A stretch of 64,000 nt of DNA from Corylus avellana (lineage: Eukaryota; Streptophyta; Magnoliopsida; Fagales; Betulaceae): contig NC_081542.1 of the NCBI RefSeq assembly GCF_901000735.1, positions 42,510,238 to 42,574,237 on the forward strand. The letters run 5' to 3'. Made by a program: the position numbers and the translations under genes. Positions 10,260-64,000 of this stretch are shown here, in pieces (position 1 is the first letter of the stretch; each line of letters begins with the position of its first letter). The notes beneath the pieces were generated by a model. The model was not told where the DNA came from and ran no database searches. It saw only the letters and a list, made by a program, of their open reading frames with translations.

Positions 10260-10413
10260 GGGGGATGATAGCTAGAAAAATGGAAAGAGAGATGAGCAGA
10301 TGGTGTTGGATTGGATGAGGAGTTATTGAACTTTCTTGGTCACCTTGTAGATATCCATTGCATTTGATTTCTTTTGTGATTTGTGTGACAAGATAGGTTG
10401 CCGGGTCGTTATC
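10260..10413. promoter_or_regulatory. LecRK-B proximal 5' region
   Basis: About 150 bases separate the LecRK-B start from the solo LTR that begins at 10414. Compared with LecRK-F, roughly 60 bases next to the LTR, including one copy of the target duplication, are missing. No TATA box can be assigned confidently. Confidence 0.5.
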
Positions 10414-22396: not shown

Positions 22397-23131
22397 TTGT
22401 CTTTCAATAACATGAGAGGCTAAACCTTCAACTAAGGTTCAAGATGAAGCCACACTTATGATTAGCAACTTTGTTTCATGTATGTAATATTTCTCAATTT
22501 AATGGTTTAATTGCTCTATTGTTTTACTTCTAATCAATTGGATTGAATAACTCTTGGATATCTTTTGTGATTCAAGGATACACTTGATGATTTAAGATTA
22601 TTCAATACAATTGATTGCTTGGTTTTCTATGTTAAAAATTGAATTTTCCCTGTGATTTATTCTCTGGATACAATTGATGTTTTGATAAAGATTGGATATT
22701 TTCTTGTGATTTACGGATACAGTTAATGATTTGATCAAATATTGGATTTCTTTTGTGATTTGGGTTATGAATGGATACATGAGATCTTTTGATTCATTCT
22801 TTGAAGCAATAGTAAAACAAACTTAAGATTTATATGTGAGAACTTTGAGGAATATTATAGATCATGAAATTATGTTATGAATTTGTGAGTGCGGATTCCG
22901 AAACCTTAGTGCTTCGTCATAAGATTTTAATCACTTTAAATTGCTCACGCTTTTGCTTTTTCATTCAAACAAAAAAAATCTCTCAAAAATTTGGAACTAG
23001 ATTAGGGTTTAATTAATTTAGATTTAAAATTGCTTTCAAGAATACAATTCCCTGTGGGTTCGACCTTGCACTTGCAATCTATTAACTACAATTGATTCGT
23101 GCACTTGCGAATTAAATAAATTTGCACAACA
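22397..23131 (+). mobile_element. End part of a gypsy-like solo LTR
   Basis: It ends TTTGCACAACA at 23131, followed by ACATT, the target duplication seen on both sides of the complete copy at 49689-51061. The start is lost at the gap. It contains about four degenerate repeats of 50-85 bases built on TTTTGTGATT and GGATACA (about 22555-22790). Confidence 0.8.
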
Positions 23132-23302
23132 ACATTCATATGAACATGCCCACAAAATTTGGTGATGATTGGACATGTATGTTGAGAGATATAACATTCT
23201 TAGTTGAAGAACATGAAACTTTGTTTCTATTGTTCTGATAATTGTTTATCATCAAATGCATTAATTTTTCATATGGTTAGATTATACTTGTCATAAGGTT
23301 TA

Positions 23303-23638
23303 GGAGAAAATCCACTTTACCCCCTTGAAGTTTCAGGAGTTTTTCAATTTGAACTCCAAAGTTTAAAAATTGGCAATGTACCACCCTAATGTTTCAAAAA
23401 TTTTCAATTTAAACATTCTGTTACTAATTTCCGTTAAATTAGACGGAAATTAAAAATAAAAAGCTTGAGGGTAATTACGTAATTTCATAGATTTATGTCC
23501 AATTTGACGGAAATTAGTAACGGAAGGTTTAAATTGAAAATCTTTAAAACATTAGGGGGATACATTGCCAATTTTTAAACTTTGAGGTTTAAATTGAAAA
23601 ACTCCTGAAACTTTAGGGGGGTAAAGTGAATTTTTCCC
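23303..23638. mobile_element. Mutator-like palindromic MITE in copia copy 1
   Basis: Long inverted ends (GGAGAAAATCCACTTTACCC on the left, the inverse on the right) are flanked by 9-bp repeats TAAGGTTTA and TAAGGTATA, one mismatch apart. The right end has the same GGGAAAAAT terminus as the MITE at 550. The counterpart is at 49182-49517. Confidence 0.8.
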
Positions 23639-23820
23639 TAAGGTATAATTTGACATCTGGAATGCGAAAAACGGACCTATAATGAGGGAGATATGAAGGA
23701 TTTAAGTTTCAAGGTGAATTTGAAAATAGGGCAACATTTGAGTTTTCAGAGGTTGAAGAAGGTCTGGTCAAATATGTAAATAACCGTTTATAGATTTGGA
23801 TCGTTGTACTCTTTCAAGAA

Positions 23821-23975
23821 GCGGCTCTAGCGTAATGGTTGAGTGATGCTCTTCACGAGTAAGGTGGCCCTGTTTCGATTCTCCACTCTCGCGGTTTTGG
23901 TAATATTCATGGGTTTGAACCCATGCCGTGTGGATAGAGTGGTAAACACCTTAACCGATAGGCTACTTGGATCCT
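23821..23975. mobile_element. Head-to-head pair of tRNA-like (SINE-like) sequences
   Basis: On the plus strand an A-box-like TAGCGTAATGG (23828-23838) is followed by a B-box-like GTTTCGATTCT (23872-23882). On the minus strand an A-box-like TAGCCTATCGG (23955-23965) is followed by a B-box GGTTCAAACCC (23911-23921). These are the internal promoter blocks of RNA polymerase III genes, arranged as two convergent tRNA-like units. Neither folds as a clean tRNA by eye, so a pair of SINE heads is the likely explanation. Counterpart at about 48850-49005. Confidence 0.5.
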
Positions 23976-24561
23976 TTAGAAATGAATTACCCTTTGTTAT
24001 TTATAATACAATAATATATGTATAAAATGAATGAAAATTCATTTGTTGAAGAGATTGCATGTTAAATTTTTTTTTTTGTACGGTATGTTTAAATATTGGC
24101 ATGCATGTAAAATTGTTTGGGGTAGTAGTAATTTTATTGAATTTTTTTTTATATAAGAATTGTATATCTAAATCCATAATTATTTCTTTGGAGAAATGAA
24201 ATGCATGCTTACTCTTTTAAAATTTGTTGAGATAATTTTTAGAGCATGTGTAGCACCTAATATGATGGCATTGAATTTATTCTTGGCATGATATTATTTA
24301 TGTTTGTTGCCTATAATTAGTTTAAATAGTGGGAGTTAGGTTGAGTTGAATTTATTTCTCATCCCTTACGTGTTTTTGCGCGAAAATCAAATTAAACATG
24401 ATAATGGGTACTTGTGGCGCGAGAGATGATTAAGAGCTTAGCGAATTTTCGATCTCGCAACTTGTGCATCAATTATTTTATTTAATTTGGATTAACGCAG
24501 CAAAATTTTGTAACTGTGTGTACATATTAATAATATTCCTCTCGTTTTAAATGTAGTGAAA

Positions 24562-27500
24562 ATGGCCTCTAAGAGTATTATTGCTGATTTAAATAAAGGA
24601 GAGAAATTGGATGGGGATAATTATGACATTTGGCATTGAAAGATCCGATATGTCTTGAATGAACAAGAGGTCTTGGAGACCATAACCCAATCCATGACTG
24701 CTCCTCAACGAGGGGACACTCCTCAACATCAACGCGATCTTGATGCCTATGAGAGTTGGCTCAAGAAAGATCGCTCTGCGTGCTTCACATTGTTAAGCAG
24801 CATGACCAATAATCTTATAGGTGAATTTGAAGAGTGTTAGACTGCCCATGACATGTGGGAAGCCCTCAAGTTGAGATATGGAGGCACTTTGGCTACTAGG
24901 CTACGCGAATTAACAATGAAGTTTGACTCATACTCAATGCGCTATAACCATACAATGAAGCAGCATTTGAGAGTCATGTCTTCTATGATTCGCGAGCTTA
25001 AAGTCGCTGGAAACAATCTCACTGATGAATAGCAGGTCCAAGCTATCATTCGTTCTCTTCAAAAATCATGGGAAAATGTGAGCCAAAACATGACGCACAA
25101 CGAAAATGTTAAAACATTTGAGGATGTAGCACGTCATCTTGAGCTAGAGGTTGAGCGCCTAGAGGTTGCTAAACCTGAAGCATTTGTTAATATGGCTGAA
25201 TCTAGTTCGCGTAGGGCATTTAGGCCCAAGCGCTGGAACCAGAGAAAAGATCTCATGCAAGGAATGACTAGAAGGCCTGAGCCTAAGAAGGCTAAATCCA
25301 CCAAACACAAGAGAGGTAAGCGTGGTGGGAAGAAAGACAAATCTAAGTTGAACTGCTTCAATTGTGGCAAGGAAGGACACTTCGCTCGTGAATGCACTAA
25401 GCCGAAGAAGGTACTCCCTAATTTCATGTCTCGTGGTATTTATGTTACTGGTCATGTTATGGTTGTTGATTCTTCTTCTGAATGGACTATAGATTCAGCA
25501 ACAACCAAACATGTAGCGAGAGAACGTACAGGGTACTTGGAGTATCGTCGCCTACTAGTTAGGAGTCGAAGATTATACATGGGGAACAGATCTAGTGTGG
25601 ATGTACTAGGCATTGGTACTTACAAACTGGATTTGCGACAAGGGCGCACTTTGTCACTCCATGATGTCTTGTATGCTCCTAAAGTTCGACAAAACCTGCT
25701 ATCAGTTAATCAGTTGCTTAGATTAGGGTTTGAGATTGATTTCAAAAAGATTATACATGGGGAACAGATCTGTGGATGTACCAGGCATTGGTACTTACAA
25801 ACTGGATTTGCTACGAGGGCGCATTTTGTCACTCCATGATGTCTTGTATGCTCCTAAAGTTCGGCGAAACCTGCTATCAGATATTTTTAGATACACATTA
25901 CTATGGTTATGGCTTTGTTTCTAATGGTTTTATGGTTTTGAACATCAATAATTTATATTATGATAATACAATTGCTTTGTTGACTTCTAGTGATAATGTT
26001 TATAATGATTCTATATTATGGCATGCTAGATTAGGCCATATAGGGCAAGATAGAATGAAAAGATTGGCTAGAGAAGATCTTATAGACCCACTCGCTAAAA
26101 CGTCATTGCCCACATGTGAGCATTGTCTTATGGGAAAGTCAAAAAAGAAAACCATTTGGAAAAGCCACTAGGGCATCTTTCCCATTGCAATTAATTCACT
26201 CAGACATTTGTGGCCCAATGAATATGAGGGCAAGGCATGGTGGTTCCTACTTCATCACATTTATTGATGATTACACGCGATATGGTCATGTCTACTTAAT
26301 CTCCCATAAGTTTGAAGCTTTCAATTGCTTTAGGTGTTATATGATTTTGGTTGAGAACCAGTTAGACAAGAGTATCAAAGCTCTAGAACTGACCGTGGAC
26401 GCGAGTATCTATCTGAGCAATTTAAAGTTCTATGTGAAGGAAAATGAATCAAAAGGCAGCTAACGAAGCTAGAAATGATTAGGTCAATGATAGGGCAAGC
26501 AAACCTACCAATATCCTATTGGGGAGATGCACTTATGACTTTAGCCTACATTCTTAATTGAGTGCCCTCAAAATCAGTACCTTCCACACCGTACAAGTTA
26601 TGAACAGATGAAAGCCCAATTTGGATAATCTACGACCATGGGGTTCGACGGGTTTTGTTCATGATACTTCCCATAAGTATGGGATGTTAGGCCCTAGAGA
26701 AAAGAAGTGCATTTTTATACGATACTCAGAACATTTTAAGGGCTACGTGTTGATAGGCGAACAACCCGATGAAAGAGTGACTGAAATAGAGTCACGAGAT
26801 GTCGATTCATTGAGAATGAATACCCTAGCAGGGATGAGGTTAATAAGGATTTGGAACTCTATGAATTAGTGGATCAGGAGGGAAATGTTCCAAATAGCCT
26901 AGTAGAGAATGAGGAAGAAATTTCCCAATCTCCTAGGGGCTGTGGGAGTGACTTGCCGCCTAGTGGGAGCACACCACTAGAAGAAGATTCACAAGAACCT
27001 CAATTGCGTAGAAGTGAACGTGGAAAAATCCGTCGATGACACTTTGAGATTGAAGGTGATGTTTTCATGGTTGCTCTGCAAGATGATGATGAGCCTAGGT
27101 CATACCATGAGACTATCTCATCTCCAGCTAGTAATGAGTGGATAAAAGCAATGAATGAAGAAATAGAGTCAATGAGGACTAACCAGGTCTGGGATTTGGT
27201 AAACCTTCTGCCAGGACGCAATGCCATGAGAAACAAATGGGTCTTAAAGATCAAGCGTAAGGCGGATGGTTCAATTGAAAGGTATAAGGCACGCCTTGTA
27301 GCGAAGGGGTACACCCAAAAGGAGGGTGTTGACCACAGGGAAACCTTCTCTCCAGTAGTAAGGTTTGCCTCCATTCGCACGATCCTTGCCATTGTTGCAC
27401 ATTTGGATTTAGAATTATTCCAAATGGATGTTAAAACTGCTTTTCTCAACGGAGAACTAGACGAGGAAATATATATGGATCAACCTATTGGTTTTGTAGC

Positions 27501-28646
27501 TAAAGGAAAAGAGCGCACAGTTTGCAAGCTTAAACGATCCATTTATGGTTTAAAACAATCATCTAGGCAATGGTATCAAAGATTTCATCAAGCCATTATT
27601 TCTAATGGATTTAAGATGATTGAAGAAGATAATTGCGTGTATGTGAAACGATCCAAATGAATTTTTGTAATTCTTTCTTTGTATGTTGATGACATTTTAT
27701 TGGCAGGAAATGACAAAAACATGATTGTCGCCACTAAAAGATGGTTGTCCTCTACTTTCGAAATAAAGGACATGGGTGAAGCAGATTATATTCTTGGAGT
27801 TAAAATTTGTAGGGATCGTTCAAAGAAATTTTTGAGTTTGTCTCAACAAACTTACATCAAAATGATTCTTGAACGCTTCCAAATGCATTACTGCAAACCC
27901 CTGTTTTTATGGGCGAACCCTTAAATCTAGAAATGAGTCCTAAAACTCAGGAAGAAAAGGAAAAAATGTCTTGAGTTCTATATTCTAGTGCTGTGGGTAG
28001 TCTGATGTACGCTATGATGTGTACTCGACCAAATATATGTTATGTTGTTGGGTTAGTTAGCAGATTCCAATCGAAGCTAGGACTAGCTCACTGGAAAGTA
28101 ATGAAGAGAATACTCAGATACCTCAAGGAAACGATGGATTATGCACTTTGCTATCAAGGCGAAGATTTGCGTTTAGTTGGTTACAGTGATGCTGATTGGG
28201 GTAGTGACCTAGACGAGCGCAAATCCACGACAGGATATGCATTTTTGCTCAGTAATGGAGTGATTACTTGGAGTAGCAAAAAGCAATCTTGTATAGCTTT
28301 ATCTACTATGGAGGCCGAATATATAGCATGCTCACCAACAGTATAAGAGGCAGTTTGGTTGAGGCGATTCTTACAGCATTTGAATGTAGTCACAACAATT
28401 AATGATCCTGTGACAATTCATTGTGATAGTATGGCAGCACTTGCCTATGCTAAGGATCCCAAATATCATGGAAGAACCAAATACATAGACATCAGATATC
28501 ACTATATACGAGATATGGTCGCTAAGAAAGAAGTGGTGCTTAAACATATTTCTACGAGTAAAATGATAGTTGATCCGCTCACAAAGCCTATAGTTCGAGA
28601 TGCTCATATGGCTCATGTTAGGAGTTTAGCACTGCGTAGATTATGA
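24562..28646 (+). pseudogene. Broken copia gag-pol, copy 1
   Basis: Starts MASKSII. The gag part carries a CCHC zinc knuckle (25354-25395). After it come a protease-like stretch (DSATTKH, about 25490), the gag-pre-integrase motif WHARLGHIG (about 26020), integrase HSDICGP (about 26195), reverse transcriptase (27067-27720, with YVDD) and RNase H (about 28180-28340). This order (integrase before reverse transcriptase) is Ty1/copia. In-frame stops at 24637-24639, 24838-24840, 25030-25032 and 27658-27660, further frame breaks and a tandem duplication at 25569-25900 make it non-functional. The protease site lacks the usual DSGA form; copy 3 reads DSAATEH, so this is a family trait. Confidence 0.92.
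25569..25900 (+). repeat. 181-bp tandem duplication in gag-pol
   Basis: The segment starting AGATTATACATGGGG at 25569 recurs at 25750, and both copies run through the same protease-region coding sequence. Copies 2 and 3 have it once. The duplication disrupts the frame and is private to copy 1. Confidence 0.85.
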
Positions 28647-29332
28647 TTATTTTTTTCTGACCATGTACATTAGATGTATTTTACTTGGAATGTTATTTTT
28701 ATATATGTGATGATTTTTCATTTTTTGTGTGACATTAAATGGATCATATTGTTTTTACTAGTACACACATATAAGCCATGTTTAGTATTGGCGAAGAAAG
28801 TATGTCAACTGGTTTAGATCGGCTTTCTCACACGAGCGATCGCCTCTAATGATGTGGTAGCAAGGTAGAGATGGGACATTGTGTCCTTTGGCGCTTTGAC
28901 AGCGAGCAAGTTAAGATAAGGTTGCCTTAGTTGGTGCTAAGGTGAGACACATTAATAGATATGTCGCCTTAGTTGGTGCTAAGATGAGGTCTATGACAAG
29001 TATTGTTTTTAGGACCGTGCATGGATATCCAACAATCCATTTAGCCTGTGATAAGCCAGATGTGAGACCTTAATTTGGCGCCTGAGGTGGCGAGCAAATA
29101 AAGGACTCATGTTAGACGCTTGGGTAGCGACTAGACTAAGATCTGTACGGTGTTTTTGAGCTTAGACATACACTCTTTTGGAAAGAGAACTCCACCGTAG
29201 CATGTATTTCATATTACATGTGCTCGTTCGACCAACAATAGAGGTGAGTGAATCGATCCCTTCTTCCTCATCGTGTGAGTCTTATGGGTCATTATTAAGA
29301 CCCCAATTATGCCCTATGTGACCTTTGACTAT
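28647..29332 (+). other. Copia 3' non-coding region, copy 1
   Basis: Lies between pol and the missing 3' LTR. It contains a twice-repeated motif around CCTTAGTTGGTGCTAAG (28924, 28969) and two GGCG...GAGCAA motifs. The same region is at 43034-44227 and 58408-59559. No open frame is supported. Confidence 0.7.
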
Positions 29333-29432: not shown

Positions 29433-29812
29433 AGGCCTAGATAATTAGCTGGGTCTGCGCCTTCGATGCCCTTAACGGGCACAAACATGAAAGCTATGCC
29501 ATGCCTAGCAGGAGGATTATTCTTGTAAGAAACCATCGAGAAGATGAAAGAAGTTGAGAAAGGATACACATAAGAAGAGTTTGGGTTTTTAGCGGGGATT
29601 TTTTCTGGGTCAATTGCCCGGCCGATTGAGTAATATGTTCTGTTAGTGAGCGTTAGAATACGGGATTCAACGTCGGCCAGGCCATAGAGTAACATATCGG
29701 AGGAGTTGAAGCCATTGAAGACGAAATCAACAGCCGATATGGATTGGAAGAAGAGGAAAACGGGCAGCAGAAAGCATAGTAGGAGAGGCTGTTGGTGTTT
29801 ATGCTCCTCCAT
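29433..29812 (-). CDS. LecRK-E, 5' fragment (duplicate of LecRK-B start)
   Basis: This encodes the first 126 residues of a LecRK (signal peptide and early lectin domain) and matches 9880-10259 without a difference that I noticed. The flank continues the match to 31236 with about ten differences. It is best read as the same locus as LecRK-B from an overlapping or allelic contig. The rest of the gene is missing at the gap. Confidence 0.85.
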
Positions 29813-30144
29813 GGGGGATGATAGCTAGAAAAATGGAAAGAGAGATGAGCAGATGGTGTTGGATTGGATGAGGAGTTATTGAACTTTCTTGGTCACCTTG
29901 TAGATATCCATTGCATTTGATTTCTTTTGTGATTTGTGTGACAAGATAGGTTGCCGGGTCGTTATCTGTTATGTGTGACTTGCCATCCATCAATATGGTG
30001 GGCCCAACAACGTTATTCCTTCTCCAATTAGGAGAGGTTTCTTGCTTCAGTCGACTTCTCCTACTCGCACTCAATATTGGATTCCTTGTGATTCTTGGAC
30101 TTAATTGCCTTGAGAGGCTTATGACCGATTTAGTCACACTATAA

Positions 30145-31584
30145 GGCTTTGTTTGGCAACAGCCTTGACCCAGACACTGTTCAGTGTCTGGGTCAAGGCT
30201 CGGTTTTTGGGGTAAGAATTTACCCACTTTTTCCCATTTTACCCATACTTCTTCCTGATTGAAACATGCCCGTGTGTGGAATTTCCCACGCTGAATTCAG
30301 GAAAAAAGGCCAGCATCATTGGGAACCCAGTGCCCCGAAACACGCGTCTGAAGCTGCGAAGAAGGGAAAACCATTTCTGATTTCTCCCCCCCCCCACCCC
30401 TTGCGCTTTGTGTACAAAATTTCTCCCCCCTCACACGCTTTTGAAGCTGCCTAAGGGAAACCATTGCTTGGTAACCGGGTTCACCCAAACACTGTTTGGG
30501 TGCTGACTATCGCCCAGCGCAAAGCAGCCCGAGGCATCGGCAAAAGGGACCATCGGAGGGGAGACAAAAGCGTTGGCGGTGGGTGGGCCCGAAACGCGGC
30601 GGCGGAGAGGAGAAGAGGAAGCGGGGGTGGTGGGGAGGGAGAGCTTGGAGAAGCCACGGAGGATGAGGTCGTCTGGCTCGAAGAAGAGCCTCTTGGGATT
30701 AGGTTCGGAGCGGGAGGGGTCAGGGTGTCATGGGTCTTGGAAAGAGGAAGACGACGAGGGAGAGCACCATTTCATGGGGTTGGAGCCAGAACAGCCGCAA
30801 GTGGTGCAGGGTTGGTGGTTGTTGGAGTTGAAGCTGTTGAGACGGAGCAAGGCGAAGGGCAGCTCCACCGAGTCTTGGAGGTCCTCTGGGTCTGCATTCT
30901 TCAGAGACTGATTTTGTATTTCTGGTCTGCAAATCTGAAACTTTATAGGTCTACCACAGGCCACAGCCTATACGCACACTCTCTCTCTTTTGAAAGAACA
31001 GTCTCACATGCTAGCCCGTTGAATCCCACGTAAGCAATTCAATGGAAAAAACACAACGAAAACATACAAAAACAAAATCAAAATACAAAAAGCAACCCTC
31101 TCTGTCTCTTCAAAAAGCAAAAGAAAAGCTTACGTTATTCTCTGCTTCCCAATGCTTGCAAACTCAACCCTCTCTGTCTCAAAAATGAGGAAAAATTGGA
31201 ATTCTGATTTTGAAGGGGGCATCAAGCATGGCGTGGTTTTTATGGCCGTGAAATCAACACCTGAAAATCAGAGCAGACCATGAAATGCAGGGATAAAAAT
31301 TCGATCAGACCATCTCTCATCTCTTGGCGTCATGGGTTGGAGAAATGGGCTACAAAACCAAGCCCTCATCTCTCTTGAATTCCATTTCCACACTGAACGT
31401 CCTAGCCATGGCTTGGTGGAAGTGCTTCTTCTACGGAGAGAGCGGTGGAAATGGAGAAGAGGAAAAGAGAAGCTGCGCCACTGTTTTTGGGTGAAACATA
31501 TGAAGGGCAAAAGTGTTATTTCACATTAGGAAAAGGACAAAAACAGTGTTTAGGCCTAGGTCAAGGCTGTTGCCAAACACCCCC
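30145..31584. mobile_element. PIF/Harbinger-like element carrying foreign sequence
   Basis: The ends are inverted repeats of about 25 bases sharing GTTTGGCAACAGCCTTGACC. The left starts GGCTTTG and the inverted right end starts GGGGTG. Both sides are flanked by TAA (30142-30144 and 31585-31587), the target of PIF/Harbinger elements. Inside the left end is a perfect 19-bp hairpin (about 30161-30200). The middle is GC-rich and coding-like but encodes no transposase, so it is non-autonomous and may have captured a gene piece. It sits inside a solo LTR upstream of a LecRK. Confidence 0.75.
30590..30964 (-). pseudogene. Possible captured host exon in the transposon
   Basis: On the minus strand a frame runs from 30964 with one stop at 30728-30730 and continues beyond. 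It shows protein-like stretches such as ADPEDLQDSVELPFALLRL, CTTCGCSGSNP and, after the stop, EPDDLILRGFSKLSLP followed by Ser/Pro-rich sequence. Composition is GC-rich, unlike the surroundings. I do not recognise the family. Non-autonomous transposons often carry such gene fragments; this is an inference from composition and frame. Counterpart at 11031-11405. Confidence 0.4.
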
Positions 31585-42539: not shown

Positions 42540-42611
42540 TCACCTCCCCTTTGCCATAGTATTGGACCAAGAGAAAGACATGGATGAAGAGTGGGACTGC
42601 CGAATATCTTC
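42540..42611 (-). pseudogene. Orphan C-terminal tail of LecRK-F
   Basis: Reads EDIRQSHSSSMSFSWSNTM and on to a stop at 42540-42542, aligning with the LecRK-A/D tail GDTRKSHSSSMHFSWSKTM. It begins with the target duplication GAAGA (42607-42611), which is also present at 51666-51670 where the gene body stops. The copia element between them has therefore split the gene. The tail has no start codon and would be expressed only by read-through or splicing across the element. Confidence 0.93.
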
Positions 42612-43022
42612 TGTTGACTAAAACACAAACATAAGAAATATAGAGTTCTATATGTGTACCTTTCTTCTAGAACTCACAAATAAGGATCTTTGGTAAGTGT
42701 TCTACAATGTATAATGATGCCTCTCACGTACAAATTTGAAAGAACTCAACGGTAGTGTTTTATTACAAGAACAAAACACATATGCCCACAGCCTAAATGC
42801 TCTTTGATGGATAATATATAAGAGAGAATTGAGAGAGATTTAGAATCTCTGATTCTGAAATGAATGAATAAATATGTAGTTTTAACTTCCATCCCGTGGG
42901 TTATTTATAAACAACCAAAGGACACAATTCTTGGTGATGGAAGTTACTAATTCCAAGAGATACAACTCTTGGTTGTATATGACCAACTCCACTGTGTGTA
43001 TATTGAGGTCCAATTACTAACA
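42612..43022 (-). repeat. 3' LTR of copia copy 2
   Basis: 411 bases, matching 51254-51665. On the element strand it runs TGTTAGTAATTGG to AGTCAACA. It is preceded by the purine tract AAGTGGGAGA (within 43023-43034). Confidence 0.9.
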
Positions 43023-44227
43023 TCTCCCACTTACACACAGTGAGCATGGGTTAACCATACATCTTTCATATTGATACGTCTCTCTTATCAATCTCTGACA
43101 TCATTCATACTTGCAAATAGGTCGTGCAACCATCGAGCACACCTGTAGAAAGATCTGGAGCACTACACTAAGTTTTGTTAGAGACTAGCATAACAACATC
43201 CCTAAAAACAAAAACAAGGTCTCGTTATGCCTTAGACTCATTCGGTCACATTGGATTAAACATCTCGGATCCCTCATGAATTTAATTTTTCATAAGTATG
43301 TTAAACCCCCACTGATTGTAATGTATTCACGATTATGGCGCAACATTCAGAAGCGACATAACCCGTCGACTGTAAATACAAAACATGAATGTGTTACCAA
43401 ATAATCTTCCCTCGTCCTTATGTCACTTGGCTTAGGTTCAACCGCTTTTCCAGTCATGTCTCTTTAGACCGCATCATTCGTGGCCATAGACAACATGCTA
43501 AAGTAGCAAATGTTGAATCCTTTGCTTCACAACATAGTCAAAGGTCACATAGGGCACAATTGGGGTCTTAATAATGACCCATAAGACTTACACGATGAGG
43601 AAGAAGGGATCGATTCACTCACCTCTATTGTTGGTCGAACGAGCACATGTAGTATGAAATACATGTTACGATAGAGTTCTCTTTCCAAAAAAGTGTATGT
43701 CTAAGCTCAAAAACACCGTACAGATCTTAGTCTAGTCGTTACCCAAGCGTCTAACCTGAGTCCTTTATTTGCTCCCCACCTCAGGTGCCAAATTAAGGTC
43801 CCACATCTGGCTTGTCACATGCTAAATGGATTGTGGGATATCCATGCACGGTCCTAAAAACAATACTCGTCATAGACCTCATCTTAGCACCAACTAAGGC
43901 GACATATCTATAAATGTGTCTCACCTTAGCACCAGCTAAGGCAACCTTATCTTAACTTGTTCGCTATCAAAGTGCCAAATGACACAATGTCTCATCTCTA
44001 CCTTGCTTCCACAGCATTAGAGGCGATTGCTCATGTGAGAAAGCCGATCTAAACCTGTTGACATACTGACATACTTTCTTCGCCAATACTAAACATGGCT
44101 TATATGTGTGTACTAGTAAAAACAATATGATCCTTTAATGTCACACAAAAAATGAAAATTCATCACATATATAAAAATAATATTGCAAGTAAAATACATC
44201 CAATGTACATGGTTAGAAAAAAAATAA
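43023..44227 (-). other. Copia 3' non-coding region, copy 2
   Basis: Purine tract at 43023-43034, then about 1.2 kb without an open frame between pol and the 3' LTR. It has the same CCTTAGTTGGTGCTAAG-type repeated motifs as copy 1. Confidence 0.7.
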
Positions 44228-47200
44228 TCATAACCTACACAGTCCTAAACTCTTAACATGAGCCATATGAGCATCTCGAACTATAGGCTTTGTTAGCGGA
44301 TCAACTATCATTTGACTCGTAGAAATATGTTTAAGCACCATTTTTTTCTTGGTGATCATATCTCGTATGTAGTGATATCTGGTGTCTATGTGTTTGGTTC
44401 GTGCATGATATTTGGGATCCTTAGCATAGGCAAGTGCTGCCATACTATCACAATGTATTGTCACAGGATCATAATTGTTGTGACCACATTCAAATGATGT
44501 AAGAATCGCCTCAACCAAACTGCCTCTTGTATTGCTGCTGAGCATGCTATATACTCTGCCTCCATAGTAGATAAAGCTATACAAGGTTGCTTTTTGCTAC
44601 TCCAAGTAATCGCTCCATTATTGAGCAAAAATGCATATCTTGTCGTGCATTTGCACTCGTCTGGGTCACTACCCCAATCAGCATCACTGTAACCAACTAA
44701 ACGCAAATCTTCGCCTTGATAGCAAAGTGCATAATCCATCGCTCCCATGAGGTATCTGAGTATTCTCTTCACTATTTTCCAGTGAGCTAGTTCTGGATTT
44801 GATTGGAATATGCTAACTAACCCAACAGCATAACATATATCTGGTCGAGTACACATCATAGCGTACATTAGACTCCCCACAGCACTAGAATAAGGAACTC
44901 GAGACATCTTTTCCTTTTCTTCTTGAGTTTTAGGACTCATTTCTAGATTTAAGGGTTCGCCCCTAAAAGCAGGAGTGTTAATGGGTTTGTAGTTATGCAT
45001 TTGCAAGCGTTCAAGAATCCTTTTGATGTAAGTTTGTTGAGACAAACTCAAAAATTTCTTTGAACGATCCCTACAAAATTTAACTCCAAGAATATAGTCT
45101 GCTTCACCCATGTCCTTTATTTCGAGAGTAGAGGACAACCATCTTTTAGTGGCGACAATCATGTTTTTATCATTTCCTGCCAATAAAATGTCATCAACAT
45201 ACAACGAAAGGATTACAAAAATTCCTTTGGATCGTTTCACATACACACAATGATCTTCTTCAATCATCTTAAATCCATTAGAAATAATGGTTTGATGAAA
45301 TCTCAGATACCATTGCTTAGATGATTGTTTAAAACAATAAATGGATCGTTTGAGCTTGCAAACTTTGCGCTCTTTTCCTTTAGCTACAAAACCAAAGGTT
45401 GATCCAAATATATTTCCTCATCTAGTTCTCCATTGAGAAAAGCAGTTTTAACATCCATTTGGAATAATTCTAAATCCAAATGTGCGACAATGGCAAGGAT
45501 CATGCGAATGGAGGCAAACCATACTACTGGAGAGAAGGTTTCCTCGTAGTCAACACCCTCTTTTTGGGTGTAACCCTTCGCTACAAGGCGTGCCTTATAC
45601 CTTTTAATTGAACCATCCGCCTTACGCTTGATCTTTAAGACCCATTTGTTTCCGATGGCATTGCGTCCTGGCGGAAGGTTTACCAAATCCCAGACCTGGT
45701 TAGTCCTCTTTGACTCTATTTCTTCATTCATTGCTTTTATCCACTCATTACAAGCTGGAGATGAGATAGTCTCATGGTATGACCTAGGCTCATCATCATC
45801 TTGCGGAGCAACCATGAAAACATCACCTTCAATCTCAAAGTGTCGTCAAGGGATTTTTCCACGTTCACTTCTATGCAATTGAGGTTCTTGTGAATCCTCT
45901 TCTAGTGGTGTGCTCCCACTAGGCGGCAAGTCACTTCCCCTGCTCCTAGGAGATTGGGAAATTTCTTCCTCATTCTTTACTAGGCTACTTGGAGCATCTC
46001 CCTCCTGATCCACTAATTCATAAAGTTCCAAATATTTATTAACCTTACCCTTGCTAGGGTATTCATTCTCAATGAAATAGACATTTCGTGACCCTATTTC
46101 AGTCACTCTTCCATCTGGTTGTTCCCCTATCAACACGTAGCCCTTAGAATGTTCTGAGTATCTTATAAAAATACACTTCTTTTCTCTAGGGCCTAACTTC
46201 CCATGTTTATGGGAAGTATCATGAACAAAACCCGTCAAACCCCATGGTCGTAGATTATCCAAATTGGGCTTTTCACCGGTCCATAACTCGTACGGTGTGG
46301 AAGGTACTGATTTTGAGGGCACTCAATTAAGAATGTAGGCTGCAGTCATAAGTACATCTCCCCAATAGGATATTGGTTGGTTTGCTTGTGCCATCATTGA
46401 CCTAATCATTTCTAGTAGAGTTTGATTTCTCCTTTCCGCCACACCATTTTGTTGTGGCGTACAAGGCATCGTTAGCTGCCTTTTGATTCCTTTTCCTTCA
46501 CATAGCACTTTAAATTGCTTAGATAGATACTCGCGTCCACGGTCAATTCTAGAACTTTGATGCTCTTGTCTAACTGGTTCTCAACCAAAATCATATAACG
46601 CCTAAAGCAATTCAAAGCTTCAAACTTATGGGAGATTAAGTAGACATGACCATATTGCGTGTAATCATCAATAAATGTGATAAAGTAGGAACCACCATGC
46701 CTTGCCCTCATATTCATTGGGCCACAAATGTCTGAGTGAATTAATTGCAATGGGAAAGATGCCCTAGTGGCTTTTCCAAATGGTTTTCTTTTTTGACTTT
46801 CCCATAAGATAATGTTCACATGTGGGCAATGACGTTTTAGCGAGTGGGTCTATAAGACCTTCTCTAGCCAATCTTTTCATTCTATCTTGCCCTATATGGC
46901 CTAATCTAGCATGCCATAATATAGAATCATTATAAACATTATCACTAGAAGTCAACAAAGCAATTGTATTATCATAATATAAATTATTGATGTCCAAAAC
47001 CATAAAACCATTAGAAACAAAGCCACAACCATAGTAATGTGTATCTAAAATTATCTTTTTCACCCATATTCTTGAAATCAATCTCAAACCCTAATCTAAG
47101 CAACCGATTAACTGATAGCAGGTTTTGCCGAACTTCAGGAGCATACAAATCATCATGGAGTAACAAAGTGCGCCCTCATCGTAAATCCAGTGTGTAAGTA

Positions 47201-48257
47201 CCAATGCCTATTACATCCACACTAGATCCGTTCCCCATGTATAATATTCGGCTCCCAACTGGTATGCGACGATACTCTAAGTACCCTGTATGTTCTCTCG
47301 CTACATGTTCGGTTGCTACTGAATCTACAATCCATTCAGAAGAAGAATCAACAACCATAACATGACTAGTAACATAAATACCACGAGACATGAAATTAGG
47401 GAGTACCTTCTTCGGCTCAGTGCATTCACTAGCGAAGTGTCCTTCCTTGCCACAATTGAAGCAGTTCAACTTAGATTTGTCTTTCTTCCCACCACACTTA
47501 CCTCTCCTATGTTTGGTGGATTTAGCCTCTTCTTAAGCGCTGGTCTTCGAGTCAATCCTTGCATGAGATCTTTTCTTTGGTTCCAGCGCTTGGGCCTAAA
47601 TGCCCTACGCGAACTTGATTTAGCTATATTAACAAATGCTTCAGGTTTAGCAGCCTCTAGGCGCTCAGCCTCTAGCTTAAGATGACGCGCTACATCCTCA
47701 AATGTTTTAATATTTTCGTTGTGCGTCATGTTTTGGCTCATAATTTCTCAAGATTTTGGAAGAGAACGAATGATAGCTTGGACCTGCTATTCATCAGTGA
47801 GATTGTTTCCAGCGACTTTAAGCTTGCGAATCATAGAAGACATCACTCTTAAATGCTGCTTCATTGTATGGTTATAGCGCATTGAGTATGAGTCAAACTT
47901 CATTGTTAATTCGTGCAGCCTAGTAGCCGAAGTGCCTCCATATCTCAACTTGAGGGCTTTCGACATGTCATGGGCAGTCTGACACTCTTCAAATTCGCCT
48001 ATAAGATCATTGCTCATGCTGCTTAACAATGTGAAGTGCGCAGAGCGATCTTTCTTGATCCAACTCTCATAGGCATCAAGATCGCGTTGATGTTGAGGAG
48101 TGTCCCCTTGTTGAGAAGCAGTCATGGATTGGGTTATGGTCTCCAAGACCTCTTGTTCGTTCAAGATATATTGGATATTTTGATGCCAAATGTCGTAATT
48201 ATCCCCATCCAATTTCTCTCCTTTATTTAAATTAGCAATAATACTCTTAGAGGCCAT
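44228..48257 (-). pseudogene. Broken copia gag-pol, copy 2
   Basis: Starts MASKSII at 48257. Gag extends to a CCHC knuckle (CFNCGKEGHFASEC, about 47430-47470). Gag-pre-integrase (about 46900), integrase (HSDICGP, about 46730), reverse transcriptase (45815-45100 with YVDD) and RNase H (about 44660-44500) follow. The frame is broken by stops and shifts; one stop (TAG in gag, about 47790) is shared with copy 1 but absent from copy 3, so copies 1 and 2 share descent after it arose. The last segment (45267-44461) is a long open stretch. Confidence 0.92.
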
Positions 48258-48849
48258 TTTCACTACATTTAAAACGAGAGAAATATTATTAATATGCACA
48301 CACATTTACAAAATTTTGCCGCGTTAATCCAAATTAAATAAAATAATTTATGCACAAGTCGCGAGATTGAAAATTCCCTAAGCTCTTAATCATCTCTCGC
48401 GCCACAAGTACCCTTTATCATGTTTAATTTGATTTTTGCGCAAAAATACATAAGGGAGGAGAAATAAATTCAACTCAACCTAACTCCCACTATTTAAACT
48501 AATTCTAGGCAACAAACATAAATAATATCATGCCAAGAATAAATTCAATGCCATCATATTAGGTGCTACACATGCTCTAAAAATTATCTCAACAAATTTT
48601 AAAAGAGTAAGCATGCATTTCATTTCTCCAAAGAAATAATTATGGATTTAGATATACAATTCTTATATAAAAATAAATCCATAAAAATTACTACTACCCC
48701 AAACAATTTTACATGCATGCCAATATTTAAACATACTGTACAAAAAAAAAATATTTAACATGCAATCTCTTCAACAAATGAATTTTCATTCATTTTATAC
48801 ATATATTATTGTATTACAAATAACAAAGGGTAATTCATTTCTAAAGGAT

Positions 48850-49005
48850 CCTAGTAGCCTATCGGTTAAGGTGTTTACCACTCTATCCACACGGCATGGG
48901 TTCAAACCCATGAATATTACCAAAACCGCGAGAGTGGAGAATCGAAACAGGGCCAACTTACTCGTGAAGAGCATCACTCAACCATTAAGCTAGAGCTACT
49001 TCTTG
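48850..49005. mobile_element. Head-to-head tRNA-like pair, copy 2
   Basis: Reverse-complement counterpart of 23821-23975 with the same A- and B-box-like motifs in convergent arrangement. Confidence 0.5.
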
Positions 49006-49181
49006 AAAAAGTACGACGATCCAAATCTATAAACGGTTATTTACATATTTGACCAGACCTTCTTCAACCTCTGAAAACTCAAATGTTGCCCTATTTTCAA
49101 ATTCGTCTTGAAACTTAAATCCTTCCTATCTCCCTCATTATAGGTCCATTTTTCGCATTCCATATGTCAAATTATACCTTA

Positions 49182-49517
49182 GGGAAAAATCTACTTTACC
49201 CCCCTAAAGTTTCAGGAGTTTTTCAATTTAAACCTCAAAGTTTAAAAATTGGCAATGTATCCCCCTAATGTTTTAAAGATTTTCAATTTAAACCTTCCGT
49301 TACTAATTTCCGTCAAATTGGACATAAATCTATGAAATTACGTAATTACCCTCAAGCTTTTTATTTTTAATTTCCGTCTAATTTAACGGAAATTAGTAAC
49401 AGAATGTTTAAATTGAAAATTTTTGAAACATTAGGGTGGTACATTGCCAATTTTTAAACTTTGGAGTTCAAATTGAAAAACTCCTGAAACTTCAAGGGGG
49501 TAAAGTGGATTTTCTCC
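49182..49517. mobile_element. Mutator-like MITE in copia copy 2
   Basis: Counterpart of 23303-23638. Flanked by TATACCTTA (49173-49181) and TAAACCTTA (49518-49526), one mismatch apart. Starts GGGAAAAAT. Confidence 0.8.
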
Positions 49518-49688
49518 TAAACCTTATGACAAGTATAATCTAACCATATGAAAAATTAATGCATTTGATGATAAACAATTATCAGAACAATAGAAACAAA
49601 GTTTCATGTTCTTCAACTAAGAATGTTATATCTCTCAACATACATGTCCAATCATCACCAAATTTTGTGGGCATGTTCATATGAATGT

Positions 49689-51061
49689 TGTTGTGCAAAT
49701 TTATTTAATTCGCAAGTGCACGAATCAATTGTAGTTAATAGATTGCAAGTGCAAGGTCGAACCCACAGGGAATTGTATTCTTGAAAGCAATTTTAAATCT
49801 AAATTAATTAAACCCTAATCTAGTTCCAAATTTTTGAGAGATTTTTTTTGTTTGAATGAAAAAGCAAAAGCGTGAGCAATTTAAAGTGATTAAAATCTTA
49901 TGACGAAGCACTAAGGTTTCGGAATCCGCACTCACAAATTCATAACATAATTTCATGATCTATAATATTCCTCAAAGTTCTCACATATAAATCTTAAGTT
50001 TGTTTTACTATTGCTTCAAAGAATGAATCAAAAGATCTCATGTATCCATTCATAACCCAAATCACAAAAGAAATCCAATATTTGATCAAATCATTAACTG
50101 TATCCGTAAATCACAAGAAAATATCCAATCTTTATCAAAACATCAATTGTATCCAGAGAATAAATCACAGGGAAAATTCAATTTTTAACATAGAAAACCA
50201 AGCAATCAATTGTATTGAATAATCTTAAATCATCAAGTGTATCCTTGAATCACAAAAGATATCCAAGAGTTATTCAATCCAATTGATTAGAAGTAAAACA
50301 ATAGAGCAATTAAACCATTAAATTGAGAAATATTACATACATGAAACAAAGTTGCTAATCATAAGTGTGGCTTCATCTTGAACCTTAGTTGAAGGTTTAG
50401 CCTCTCATGTTATTGAAAGACAAAACTAAATTGATTGAATTCATAATGTAAAATTGAGTACTTATAAATAATAATCACAAAGTTGAGATTCAAAAGCTAG
50501 GAAAACCTTAAACTCTCTTCTTTCTCCTCTGCAATCTTGAAATTCGTAGTCTCCCTCAACTAATTTGATAATTCCCTATTTATAGACCTAAAACTTAGGG
50601 TTTTACAAGTTGAAATCGGATCAAATTCGTCCACGTTTGTACCCTTTTATTGCGGGACAATTTTTGAATAGTAAAAGTCCGAATTAGGAAACTCCTATTT
50701 GACAAGGAATTGTAGTATTTTGAGTTAGCTTTCCAATGTCGCTTGAATCACCTCAATCGAATATGTGAACGAAAAGTTATGGTCAAAATATTGAGACGTG
50801 CAGAATCTGAATTTGAATCCAATTCGAAATTTTATCCAATCTTATCCTTAATCCTATGTAACCATTTCTTGGATTTGGTTAAATTTAACCACATCATCTA
50901 GGTCTTCTCAAAGTAAGTTTTCTTCCAAAAAGTAGTTTTTCTTCAACACCTACAAAATACTAAAAACACAAAACTAACACAGAACATCAGATAATAACAC
51001 AGCTAAAGGATTAACACAAGTAAATTAAGGGGTCCAAATATGCAATATTTGGCACATATCA
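49689..51061 (-). mobile_element. Gypsy-like solo LTR nested in the copia leader
   Basis: On the minus strand it runs TGATATGTGCC to TTTGCACAACA and is flanked by a perfect AATGT (plus strand) at 49684-49688 and 51062-51066. Its first 60 bases resemble the LTR start of the gypsy-type element at 34871 (TGATAAGCGCC), so it is a distant relative. No internal sequence is present. Confidence 0.85.
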
Positions 51062-51240
51062 AATGTTCTCTACAACATGTATAAATTTGGTGGTCTAATT
51101 CATTCATTTTCAAAATTTGCCAATAAAGGCCATATATTAACGAAAATGGTATATGAATCAAAAACTTGATTTCATTGCAATTTCTCATGTATAGAAAAAC
51201 ATTTACACATGCATACATACAATGAGAAACACTCAACTTG

Positions 51241-51253: not shown

Positions 51254-51665
51254 TGTTGAGTAAAACATAAACATAAAAAATATAGAGTTCTATGTGTGTA
51301 CCTTTCTTCTAGAACTAACAAATTAGGATCTTTGGTAAGTGGTCTACAATGTATAGTGATGCCTCTCACGTACAGATTTGAAAGAACTCAACGGTGGTGT
51401 TTTATTACAAGAACAAAACACATATGCCCACAACCTAAATGCTCTTTGATGGAGAATATATAAGAGAGAATTGAGAGAGATTCATAAATTTTAATTTTGA
51501 AATGAATGAATAAATCTGTAGTTTTAACTTACATCCCAAGGGTAATTTATAAACAACCAAAAGACACAACTCTTGGTTATGGAAGCTACTAATTCCAAGA
51601 GAAACAATTCTTGGTTTTATATGGACCAACTCCACTGTGGGTATATTGAGGTCCAATTACTAACA
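51254..51665 (-). repeat. 5' LTR of copia copy 2, overlapping the LecRK-F end
   Basis: 412 bases. Its first base is the third base of LecRK-F codon 674, and its next 48 bases encode the last 15 residues and the stop. A TTTATAAAT box lies near 51545-51553 and an AATAAA signal at 51401-51406, all on the minus strand. Confidence 0.92.
51401..51406 (-). terminator. Likely poly(A) signal for LecRK-F in the LTR
   Basis: AATAAA on the minus strand, about 210 bases after the LecRK-F stop codon and inside the LTR. The same hexamer is kept in the LTR remnant after LecRK-B (7974-7979). Its use for LecRK transcripts is inferred. Confidence 0.5.
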
Positions 51666-53686
51666 TCTTCAAATGTTGGGTGTGATGAAGGCCCAAAATC
51701 TCGTGGAATCTCAGACCACCTACCCATGGGTTTCATTTTTCGGAGCAAGTATACATCGATATCCTCACTTTCAACCTCATTGTTCCCCTCCAACACTTTC
51801 ACTACTTGTCTCATTGTTGGCCGGGAACTTGGGTCAGGGTAAGCACACAACAAGCCCAAGTGAAGCACCCTGCCCACTTCTTCCTCATCAAACTCGCCTC
51901 TAGCCTTCAATCTCTCATCAAGAGCATTCAATAATTGCCCTTGTACCATCAATTGCCATGCCCAATCTACCAAAGCTGGCTTCCCTACCTCTATAGGCCT
52001 CCTCCCACACATGACTTCTAAAATCAAGACACCAAATCCAAACACATCGGTTTGAGCCGATGCCCGTCCGCTTCTAATCACTTCTGGCGCCAAATATCCA
52101 ACGGTCCCAATCACCCTTGTCGTGTTAGGCATTTGTCCATGGTCGTGCATTCGGGCTAATCCGAAATCCCCTAGCCTTCCATTCATATCCTTGTCAAGTA
52201 ACACATTGCTAGCCTTAATGTCCCTATGAAGGACTTTGGCTTCCCACCCCTCGTGTAAGTACAAGACTGCAAAAGCTACATCTTTCAAAATCCTTATCCT
52301 GTCTTCACAGCTCAACATCATCCTGTCATCACATTCAAACACCCACTTGTCCAAACTCCCATTTTCCATATAGTCATAAACTAACAAGAAGTTGCCCTTC
52401 TCTCTCTTGCACCACCCTCTCAACCCCACCAAACTTCTATGCTTCAATCTTCCAAGGCTTGAAATTTCAGCCAAAAATTCTCTCATCCCATCATTTTCAT
52501 GCGAAATGCATTTCACTGCAATCTCTGCCCCTCCTGCTAAAACACCCTTATAGACCTTCCCATTCCCTCCGGTTCCAATCACATTTTCTTCCGAGAAATC
52601 TCTTGTGGCCGCCTCAATTTCTATGTAAGTCATTCTGTGTGGCCAATACTCCAATTCCCATTCCTCCATTTCCTCTCTCTCCCTAGCTCTCCTTCGCTGC
52701 CTCTTGATCCAAAACAGAGCAAACAGAGCAGAAAGACAGACAACGAAGAAAACTCCCACTGTGATTCCTGCAATAAACCCTTTTGATCGAAATATTGACT
52801 CCTTTGGAAGAACAAAAGATGGCAAACCTGTGGTAACCAACTCTTGGCTTAACGAAAAGTTGGAATTACTAAAGCTCCAAGCCAAAATCCTGTGGCTTTC
52901 AACTAACTGTCCGGTAGCACTAGTAAAGCCAACATACATTTCATCCTCAAACACCTCAGAAAGGTCAATAGAAGCATTCAACAAAGGCTTCAGAGGTCTT
53001 TTCATGCCTGCCAGAGCCACAGTAACATTAATCAAAGAATCTGAATAATCAATCCAAACTTGGTAATTTTCACCACTGTTGAGCTTCAATTCCTTGAATG
53101 ACTTCTCATCATCAGCGTTGCTGCTGTTGTCGCTTCTTTGGTTGTCGGGCCAGTACCCGGCATCGTGTGATGCGTTTGATTTGAGGGAGTTTATGTCGAT
53201 TCCAACATGGTTGGCGCTTATGTCATCGAATTCTACGTTCTTAAACACATCTAACTCGACACCGAAGACATGGTTATTGGGATTCCCATTGTTGGTGAAG
53301 TTGAGAAGGCCTAGATAATTAGCTGGGTGCGCGCCTTCGATGCCCTTAACGGGCACAAACATGAAAGCTATGCCATGCCTAGCGGGAGGATTATTCTTGT
53401 AAGAAACCATAGAGAAGATGAAAGAAGTTGAGAAAGGATACACATAAGAAGAGTTTGGGTTTTTAGCGGGGATCTTTTCTGGGTAAATTGCCCGGCCGAT
53501 TGAGTAATAAGTTCTGTTAGTGAGCATTAGAATACGAGATTCAACGTCGGCCAGGCCATAGAGTAACATATCGAAGGAGTTGAAACCATTGAAGACGAAA
53601 TCAACAGCCGATATGGATTGGAAGAAGAGGAAAAAGGGCAGCAGAAAGCATAGTAGGAGAGGCTGTTGGTGTTTACGCTCCTCCAT
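51617..53686 (-). CDS. L-type lectin receptor kinase LecRK-F with LTR-derived C-terminus
   Basis: An intact 689-residue receptor kinase. Signal peptide about 1-27, legume-lectin domain about 28-280, transmembrane helix about 303-327, Ser/Thr kinase about 363-633 with complete glycine loop (GTGGNGKVYKG), catalytic Lys, HRD, DFG and APE. It is the likely functional member of the B/F/G lineage, which has five extra residues in the lectin domain relative to A/D (QRSD insertion region near 183). Residues 675-689 (VSNWTSIYPQWSWSI) and the stop are encoded by a copia LTR; the original tail is at 42540-42611. One lectin residue differs from relatives (VELDVF instead of VEFDVF). A solo LTR lies 197 bases upstream of the ATG. 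Clade VII-like from memory; ligand unknown. Confidence 0.95.
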   Translation of the reverse strand: MEERKHQQPLLLCFLLPFFLFFQSISAVDFVFNGFNSFDMLLYGLADVESRILMLTNRTYYSIGRAIYPEKIPAKNPNSSYVYPFSTSFIFSMVSYKNNPPARHGIAFMFVPVKGIEGAHPANYLGLLNFTNNGNPNNHVFGVELDVFKNVEFDDISANHVGIDINSLKSNASHDAGYWPDNQRSDNSSNADDEKSFKELKLNSGENYQVWIDYSDSLINVTVALAGMKRPLKPLLNASIDLSEVFEDEMYVGFTSATGQLVESHRILAWSFSNSNFSLSQELVTTGLPSFVLPKESIFRSKGFIAGITVGVFFVVCLSALFALFWIKRQRRRAREREEMEEWELEYWPHRMTYIEIEAATRDFSEENVIGTGGNGKVYKGVLAGGAEIAVKCISHENDGMREFLAEISSLGRLKHRSLVGLRGWCKREKGNFLLVYDYMENGSLDKWVFECDDRMMLSCEDRIRILKDVAFAVLYLHEGWEAKVLHRDIKASNVLLDKDMNGRLGDFGLARMHDHGQMPNTTRVIGTVGYLAPEVIRSGRASAQTDVFGFGVLILEVMCGRRPIEVGKPALVDWAWQLMVQGQLLNALDERLKARGEFDEEEVGRVLHLGLLCAYPDPSSRPTMRQVVKVLEGNNEVESEDIDVYLLRKMKPMGRWSEIPRDFGPSSHPTFEDVSNWTSIYPQWSWSI

Positions 53687-53882: not shown

Positions 53883-54671
53883 TGTTAGGTGTGACTTGCC
53901 ACCCATCAATATGGTGGGCCCAGTGTGTACCTTTACTTTTCCCTATGTTGGAGGCTCTTCTACGACTACAACTTGGGTTTGTATTCCTGTGTTGACTTGT
54001 ATTGGACTTTGTCGTCCAAATTGGATTCCTTAGGGACCGTACCTATAGCAACCGACCTATATGCTTATAAAAGCATGCTTTGGTTCTCTTGTTTTGTGTG
54101 CTTAAAAGCAGTGTGGTGGTAGCAAGCCGCACACAAGTGCAAAACTCAAGCACCAGTGAAACATAAAAGAGAGGGTGTGCCGAAACGTGAATATATGTGA
54201 GCACTTAAAGGGCGGAGAAAAAGAGAGAATCTGAGAAAATGTGTGCAAGGACAGTAAGGGTATGTTTTCTTTTTGGTGGTTTTTGGGAGCAAAAAATAAG
54301 TAATTAGAAGAAAATATACTGTAGAGTGAGCGAAAAAAATAGAGATCAGCCGCCATCTCTTCTAGCAAAAGAAGAGTTTGTATATCTGTCTTTTGTATTT
54401 TATTTTGAAAATAATTTCTCTTGTGTGATAGTGAAATTTGAGTGTATTGGAACTTTGAGATCTGAGTGATTTTCTCTATACTATTTTTGTATTCCATCTT
54501 TTGAAAGTGAATTTTTTTTCGGGTCGTCTCTGCCAGTAGATCTTGGCTTGTTAAACCGAACCATTTAAATTTTTGTGTTATGTGTGATTATTTATCTTTA
54601 TTATTCCGTATTCATCTTATTTTTCACACCTCACCTCATGAGTCTTGCGAAATAGGATTAATTTCCTAACA
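53883..54671 (+). mobile_element. Solo LTR in the LecRK-F promoter
   Basis: 789 bases from TGTTAGGTGTGACTTGCC to AATTTCCTAACA, flanked by AAAAT on both sides (53878-53882, 54672-54676). The LecRK-A and D promoters have the uninterrupted site. A TATAAAA at 54066-54072 points rightward, away from the gene. The LTR could act as a divergent promoter or displace upstream elements; neither is shown. Confidence 0.88.
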
Positions 54672-57911: not shown

Positions 57912-57983
57912 TCACCTCCCCTTCGCCATAGTATTGGACCAAGAGAAAGATATGGATGAAGAGTGGGACTGCCGAATATCTTC
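57912..57983 (-). pseudogene. Orphan C-terminal tail of LecRK-G
   Basis: Nearly identical to 42540-42611: EDIRQSHSSSISFSWSNTM and on to a stop at 57912-57914. It begins with GAAGA (57979-57983), the copy of the target duplication also found at 63968-63972. The copia element between separates it from the gene body. Confidence 0.92.
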
Positions 57984-58395
57984 TGTTGAGTAAAACATAA
58001 ACATAAAAAATATAGAGTTCTATGTGTGTACCTTTCTTCTATAACTCACAAACAAAGATCTTTGGTAAGTTTTCTACAATGTATAGTGATGCCTCTCACG
58101 TACAGATTTGAAAGAACTCAACGGTGGTGTTTTATTACAAGAACAAAATACATATGCCCACAACCTAAATGCTCTTTGATGGAGAATATATAAGAGAGAA
58201 TTGAGAGAGATTTAGAATTTCTGATTCTGAAATGAATGAATAAATCTGTAGTTTTAACTTCCATTCCATGGGTTATTTATAAACAACCAAAAGACACAAC
58301 TCTTAGTTATGGAAGTTACTAATTCCAAGAGATACAACACTTGGTTTTATATGGACCAACTCCACTGTGGGTATATTGAGGTCCAATTACTAATA
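57984..58395 (-). repeat. 3' LTR of copia copy 3
   Basis: 412 bases, matching 63554-63967, with the first dinucleotide mutated from TG to TA on the element strand. Confidence 0.88.
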
Positions 58396-63553: not shown

Positions 63554-63967
63554 TGTTGAGTAAAACATAAACATAAAAAATATAGAGCTCTATGTGTGTA
63601 CCTTCCTTCTAGAACTTACAAATAAGGATATTTGGTAAGTGTTCTTCAATGTATAGTGATGCCTCTCACGTACAAATTTGAAAGAGCTCAACGGTGGTGT
63701 TTTATTACAAGAACAAAACACATATGCCCACAACCTAAATGCTCTTTGATGGAGAAGATAGAAGAGAGAGAATTGAGAGAGATTCAGAATTTCTGATTTT
63801 GAAATGAATGAATAAATCTATAGTTTTAACTTCCATCCCATGGGTAATTTATAAACAACCAAAAGACACAACTCTTAGTTATGGAAGTTACTAATTCCAA
63901 GAGATACAATTCTTGGTTTTATATGGACCAATTCCACCGTGGGTATATTGAGGTCCAATTACTAACA
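63554..63967 (-). repeat. 5' LTR of copia copy 3, overlapping the LecRK-G end
   Basis: About 414 bases. Its first base is the third base of a LecRK-G Asp codon, exactly as in LecRK-F. Confidence 0.9.
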
Positions 63968-64000
63968 TCTTCAAATGTTGGTTGTGATGATGGCCCAAAA
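63919..64000 (-). CDS. LecRK-G, C-terminal end (cut by window edge)
   Basis: The last 27 codons of another LecRK. Reading toward the stop at 63919-63921 gives FGPSSQPTFED, then VSNWTSIYPRWNWSI, where the last 15 residues lie in the copia LTR. This matches LecRK-F and LecRK-B. The gene body lies beyond the right edge, so whether it is intact cannot be judged. Confidence 0.88.
   Translation of the reverse strand, partial: FGPSSQPTFEDVSNWTSIYPRWNWSI

Follow-up and report, generated by a model that had tools for sequence, protein, structure and literature searches.

Long terminal repeats of a copia retrotransposon form the coding end of lectin receptor kinase genes in hazelnut

What becomes of a receptor kinase when a retrotransposon lands in the last codons of its gene? 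The question is raised by LecRK-F, a lectin receptor kinase gene of hazelnut (Corylus avellana) whose reading frame runs directly into the long terminal repeat (LTR) of a copia element. In the window, that is, the whole stretch of 64,000 nucleotides that was analysed, LecRK-F is a single open reading frame (ORF) of 689 residues on the minus strand (51617-53686). It holds the lectin and kinase domain pair of the VII.1-like L-type lectin receptor kinases (Pfam PF00139, legume lectin, 1.2e-65; PF00069, kinase, 2.2e-44; and PF07714), is 84-92% identical to named Betulaceae homologues, and retains the HRD and DFG motifs and the invariant lysine. An alignment of 33 hand-picked homologues has 190 invariant positions, and LecRK-F departs at only three of them, F145 and the two residues of a terminal GR. 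On the minus strand the junction reads ...CCA ACA TTT GAA GA|T GTT AGT AAT TGG ACC TCA ATA TAC CCA CAG TGG AGT TGG TCC ATA TAA, the bar marking the LTR start. The last host bases are GAAGA and the adjoining T opens the copia LTR (TGTTAG); codon 673 is the last host-only codon and codon 674 (Asp) is made up of host GA and LTR T. From the third base of codon 674 onwards the LTR encodes the end of the gene (51617-51665, minus strand), with 15 residues, VSNWTSIYPQWSWSI, and a TAA stop. A preliminary description had proposed that an intact kinase runs in frame into a copia LTR that supplies its C-terminus and stop, that the junction is exact, with the first LTR base as third base of codon 674, and that the target site is GAAGA. 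All of this is borne out by the minus-strand reading, by the two copies of GAAGA, and by the 689-residue ORF with its Pfam domains and conserved positions. That an in-frame fusion would be improbable in itself was considered and rejected: any insertion in coding sequence continues to the first stop, and the LecRK-F LTR would wholly encode 1, 15 or 24 residues depending on its reading frame.

The inserted element has an LTR pair with TG...CA ends, a 5-bp target-site duplication and copia ORFs in between, and is thus recognizable as a copia LTR retrotransposon. Its 5' LTR (51254-51665, minus strand, TGTTAG...TCAACA) pairs with a 3' LTR (42612-43022, minus strand, TG...CA) at 92.0% identity (BLAST; the alignment of 415 columns has 32 mismatches and takes in 3 bases beyond the LTR), and GAAGA flanks both, at 51666-51670 on the 5' LTR side and at 42607-42611 on the 3' LTR side (both minus strand). 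The coding region (44461-48305, minus strand) is broken into separate ORFs, with gag at 47787-48305, the SH3-like domain that follows integrase at 45846-46322 and reverse transcriptase at 44461-45267; PF14223 (copia gag, 3.8e-16), PF25597 (2.9e-18) and PF07727 (5.1e-14) score above the cut-off. Beyond the 3' LTR lies the displaced original LecRK tail, EDIRQSHSSSMSFSWSNTMAKGR followed by a stop (42540-42611, minus strand), in a 127-bp relic stretch that matches paralogue ends at 81-96%. Because the 5' LTR contains TATATA (51457-51462) and AATAAA (51401-51406) motifs, it could furnish the 3' untranslated region and poly(A) site of LecRK-F. About 3 kb of this element (48113-51065) is missing from the duplicated element at LecRK-G described below, and is probably a nested insertion. 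Elsewhere in the window, 22397-29332 repeats part of the element (43534-50423) in inverted orientation at 93-97% identity and has a 100-N gap on each side; it is possibly a misplaced contig.

The fusion stands at LecRK-F, but not as the event of a single gene for which it had been taken: self-comparison of the window and a genome search place the identical junction in three genes, LecRK-F, LecRK-B and LecRK-G. LecRK-G, which has its 3' end at 63919-64000 (minus strand) and continues past the window (L002, G000:C2:42574159-42576225 plus stop), ends in the tail VSNWTSIYPRWNWSI; it is a complete 689-residue frame with an intact kinase, mostly outside the window, and departs at L505 and the terminal GR among the 190 positions invariant in the hand-picked homologues. 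The duplicated element there has a 5' LTR at 63554-63967 and a 3' LTR at 57984-58395 (both minus strand), with GAAGA and the relic tail next to the latter (57912-57983). Element, both LTRs, GAAGA on both sides and relic tail are all present at LecRK-F and at LecRK-G. LecRK-B (8190-10259, minus strand) carries the LTR-encoded tail VSNWTSIYLQWNWSI, has a nonsense codon at position 566 and reads DFE in place of DFG; it ends in a truncated LTR of 307 bp (7932-8238, minus strand), which adjoins neither the rest of the element nor the original tail. AATAAA is kept in all five LTRs at the three genes, and S666P beside the junction is common to F, G and B and unseen in eight other aligned paralogues (one of them gapped there). 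The stretch 29433-31236, which adjoins an N gap, is 99.1% identical to 9880-11677 (the LecRK-B start and upstream sequence) and has the appearance of an allelic contig.

The three genes belong to a tandem array. A genome search with LecRK returned at least 70 matches (65 of 2812 candidates scored), and further LecRK fragments exist besides these, making all gene counts lower bounds. At least 16 matches, at 79-100% identity, lie on contig C2 between 42.47 and 42.72 Mb; three of the 16 are fused, ten have an original-type tail (L004-L011, L013 and L015, the last with an inner stop), L012 has an altered end, and L014 and L017 are partial. The altered end of L012 (G000:C2:42639619-42641607), ..SSSMDLSWSKTMVGAGESAS, is without the terminal GR. 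LecRK-A and LecRK-D differ at 8 of 2073 bases and may be alleles.

What the fused receptors have lost can be judged from their relatives. The preliminary description had taken the original tail for a conserved family feature, which is correct: 106 of the 120 best homologues end in GR, the remaining 14 being shortened or extended by further residues, and a review of lectin receptor-like kinases, in its passage on the C-terminal tail, describes 'a GR doublet end' and states that the tail matters for catalysis and partner binding (PMC7758398). The 33 aligned homologues were picked by hand from the best 120, and GR is invariant in 33 of 33 partly by choice because none of the 14 GR-less homologues was among them; 106/120 is the fair figure. 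LecRK-F, G and B share the Lectin_legB and kinase domains of the VII.1-like genes and carry the LTR tail where GR would stand, GR being common in the family rather than strictly defining. A protein search with LecRK-F residues 650-689 gave two candidates for other LTR-tailed proteins, both rejected: P0001 (Corylus avellana) carries the original tail, and P0121 (Carpinus fangiana), a prediction that is rearranged and in which Pfam matches no kinase domain, ends in an original-type tail, ..KDIRQFKSSSMSISWSNTMAKGR. This tail-only search found no LTR-tailed protein among the representatives of 90% clusters, behind which cluster members could be hidden. From the 106/120 GR ends and the relic-like tail of the Carpinus protein we take the original tail to be the ancestral state. 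The suggestion that a phosphorylatable tail was swapped for a Trp-rich one does not hold in this form, the LTR tail retaining four Ser, one Thr and one Tyr, as compared with seven Ser and one Thr in the relic tail; the clear loss is the terminal GR. AlphaFold2 models of P0001 and LecRK-F were too poor to show whether the original tail docks on the kinase (mean pLDDT 46.4 and 47.1).

We propose the following history, and put the probability of the account as a whole (single insertion, LTR-ended receptor, duplication, retention of F and G) at about 0.7. In the hazelnut lineage, a copia retrotransposon would have entered a VII.1-like L-type lectin receptor kinase once, at codon 674 and in sense orientation. 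The 5' LTR would then have provided the last 15 residues, the stop codon, the 3' untranslated region and probably the poly(A) site, leaving the original GR tail stranded some 9 kb downstream, behind the element; the receptor would have stayed largely intact because the insertion point lies beyond the kinase domain. Duplication of the locus would have given F, G and B, of which F and G kept open frames, with a body apparently under purifying selection, and B died. One insertion is argued because insertion site and target duplication are common to the copies, from which we infer a single origin of the junction, and insertion followed by duplication in the Corylus avellana tandem array is the simplest history. 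The junction could also have spread among copies by gene conversion. The unfused L004 shares some derived sites with G and others with both G and B, and its dS to G (0.054) is lower than that between F and G (0.080); such patterns are signs of gene conversion in the array, where paralogue relations are not clean.

The LTRs also bear on when this took place. With 5 and 3 denoting the 5' and 3' LTRs, K2P distances are 0.082 for F5-F3, 0.061 for G5-G3, 0.058 for F5-G5, 0.066 for F3-G3, 0.078 for F5-B5 and 0.082 for G5-B5, a near-star pattern in which three sites are exclusive to F5 and G5 and one to F3 and G3. These distances agree with an insertion and a duplication soon afterwards. With literature substitution rates of 2.5e-9 to 1.3e-8 per site per year, the age comes to roughly 2 to 16 million years.

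Were the LTR-ended receptors kept as genes? Between F and G the pairwise dN/dS is 0.35 over the body (34 synonymous and 43 non-synonymous differences) and 0.20 over the kinase. Because tandem genes convert, bases private to one gene were counted, in an alignment of 11 of the 16 array matches (L009, L013, L014, L015 and L017 left out). Pooled, the changes private to F or G number 17 synonymous and 19 non-synonymous (omega 0.32-0.45, p 0.0008-0.013 for kappa 1-4). LecRK-G carries this signal (10 synonymous, 8 non-synonymous, p 0.006), the private changes of LecRK-F (7 and 11, p 0.15) not being significant alone; LecRK-B has 5 synonymous and 12 non-synonymous private changes, one stop and an omega of 0.82. 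When neutral drift was simulated at the LTR rate, without indels, F and G both stayed open in 3.2% of cases, and in fewer at higher rates. Taken together, these patterns suggest that the bodies of F and G are kept under purifying selection, part of which could stem from the unfused copies via gene conversion. The altered gene, in three copies of which two are intact, seems to have been kept. F and G transcripts would then be expected to end in the LTR, and their proteins to be made and to work with the foreign tail. Going further, F and G may form a small class of working receptor kinases that have had an LTR-derived C-terminus, stop and 3' end since before the duplication and that selection keeps without the GR tail, a view that we hold tentatively and at somewhat less than even odds.

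The same data can be read less favourably: F and G would be recently silenced copies on their way to becoming pseudogenes like B, the LTR tail a mere consequence of decay and no protein produced. B is already dead, LTRs are often methylated, and the private changes of F do not differ significantly from neutral. A solo-LTR-like insert of 789 bp found in F only (53883-54671; TG...CA ends, AAAAT on either side) also splits the upstream region of LecRK-F, 196 bp ahead of the start codon, where G, A and L012 are uninterrupted; this is a further reason to doubt that LecRK-F is expressed. Against such silencing, F and G are each open over 689 codons, the private changes, when pooled, suggest constraint, as does the kinase dN/dS of 0.20, and G is free of the upstream insert. 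We regard silencing of both genes as unlikely, though a reading to be taken seriously; because G lacks the insert, it is the better gene for an expression test.

A transcript of F might also restore the original end, if the element were removed as a 9-kb intron. A candidate donor, GAT^GTTAGT, is found at the LTR start and a candidate acceptor, TTTTAG^TCAACA, where the 3' LTR ends; the spliced transcript would link GAT to TCAACAGAAGAT, bringing the original tail back in frame with four extra residues (..EDSTEDIRQ..GR; joined product EDSTEDIRQSHSSSMSFSWSNTMAKGR followed by a stop). There is a parallel in Arabidopsis, where one exonic insertion of the copia element ONSEN was found wholly spliced out, from which its authors concluded that splice sites may be present in ONSEN LTRs (PMC12112155). 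The in-frame AG is however confined to the 3' LTR of F, the other complete LTRs here (F5, G5 and G3) reading TTTTAC; at G3 the other AG examined leads to a frameshift, and B has no adjoining relic tail. Even in F, the donor is off the consensus at -1 and +3, and the transcript would need to run past an AATAAA motif. Restoration of the tail by splicing thus appears quite improbable, and we retain the reading in which the LTR encodes the end of the receptor.

Given an LTR-encoded end, the tail itself could be what selection favours, in a receptor with altered signalling or stability, a change that the preliminary description had suggested. The LTR family is moderately abundant, with at least 46 genome matches to the LecRK-F LTR (contigs C1-C6, C8, C9 and C11), and 19 comparison copies were drawn from the 41 matches outside the array. 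The 15-residue tail frame is kept in 6 of these 19 as against all three fused genes, a difference (Fisher p 0.055) that overstates the case because the 19 copies are related by descent; the other 13 close early, and in each the stop is a TAG that has replaced a Trp or Gln codon. Neither 3' LTR of the locus entered the test; G3 keeps the tail frame and F3 does not. Moreover, the tails of F, G and B differ at three places (P/L, Q/R and S/N), and all three differences are non-synonymous. We see no sign in these sequences of selection on the tail itself and consider a selected tail very doubtful; the LTR tail is most likely tolerated rather than useful. Lastly, a misjoin of haplotypes or contigs at the LTR might be feared given the N gaps and near-duplicate contigs of the array, but it is extremely improbable: the junction is found at three places with LTRs 6-8% apart (K2P), two of them preserve both the relic tail and a perfect target site, and no N gap of the window comes closer than the one ending at 29432.

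At this locus a mobile element has given an immune-type receptor a new end and spared its kinase. The case is polarised, can be roughly dated, and still has the displaced tail together with unfused sister genes nearby. If F or G is expressed, tail swaps could reveal the role of the conserved GR tail in lectin receptor kinases; if both work without it, they would be a natural experiment on tail function. No LTR-ended lectin receptor kinase was found in titles or abstracts of the open-access papers searched, among the matches listed. Resistance receptors that end in retrotransposon sequence are already known: in rice Xa21D the copia element Retrofit sits in the coding sequence, creating a chimeric 3' end, and partial resistance is reported (PMC3036077, in a passage citing Wang et al. 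1998). As at LecRK-F, a retrotransposon has entered the coding part of a single gene from a receptor kinase family, but Xa21D keeps only its extracellular LRR domain, whereas LecRK-F keeps the whole kinase, has the terminal tail alone replaced, and exists as a fused gene in three copies. The L10 TIR-retroelement chimera and RPP4-AtCOPIA4, also described in PMC3036077, likewise join a resistance gene domain to retroelement sequence; in contrast to LecRK-F, there is truncation to the TIR domain, and RPP4-AtCOPIA4 joins neighbouring genes at the RNA level. In Arabidopsis, ONSEN insertions in RAV2 and ANL2 are predicted to yield chimeric proteins, with transcription terminating inside the LTRs, and at RAV2 a translated LTR forms the predicted C-terminus as in LecRK-F (PMC12112155); unlike LecRK-F, these insertions are new, their products truncated, and long-term retention is not part of their history. 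What is distinct in hazelnut is that the entire kinase is retained and the conserved tail alone exchanged, in a fused form that is present three times and open in two.
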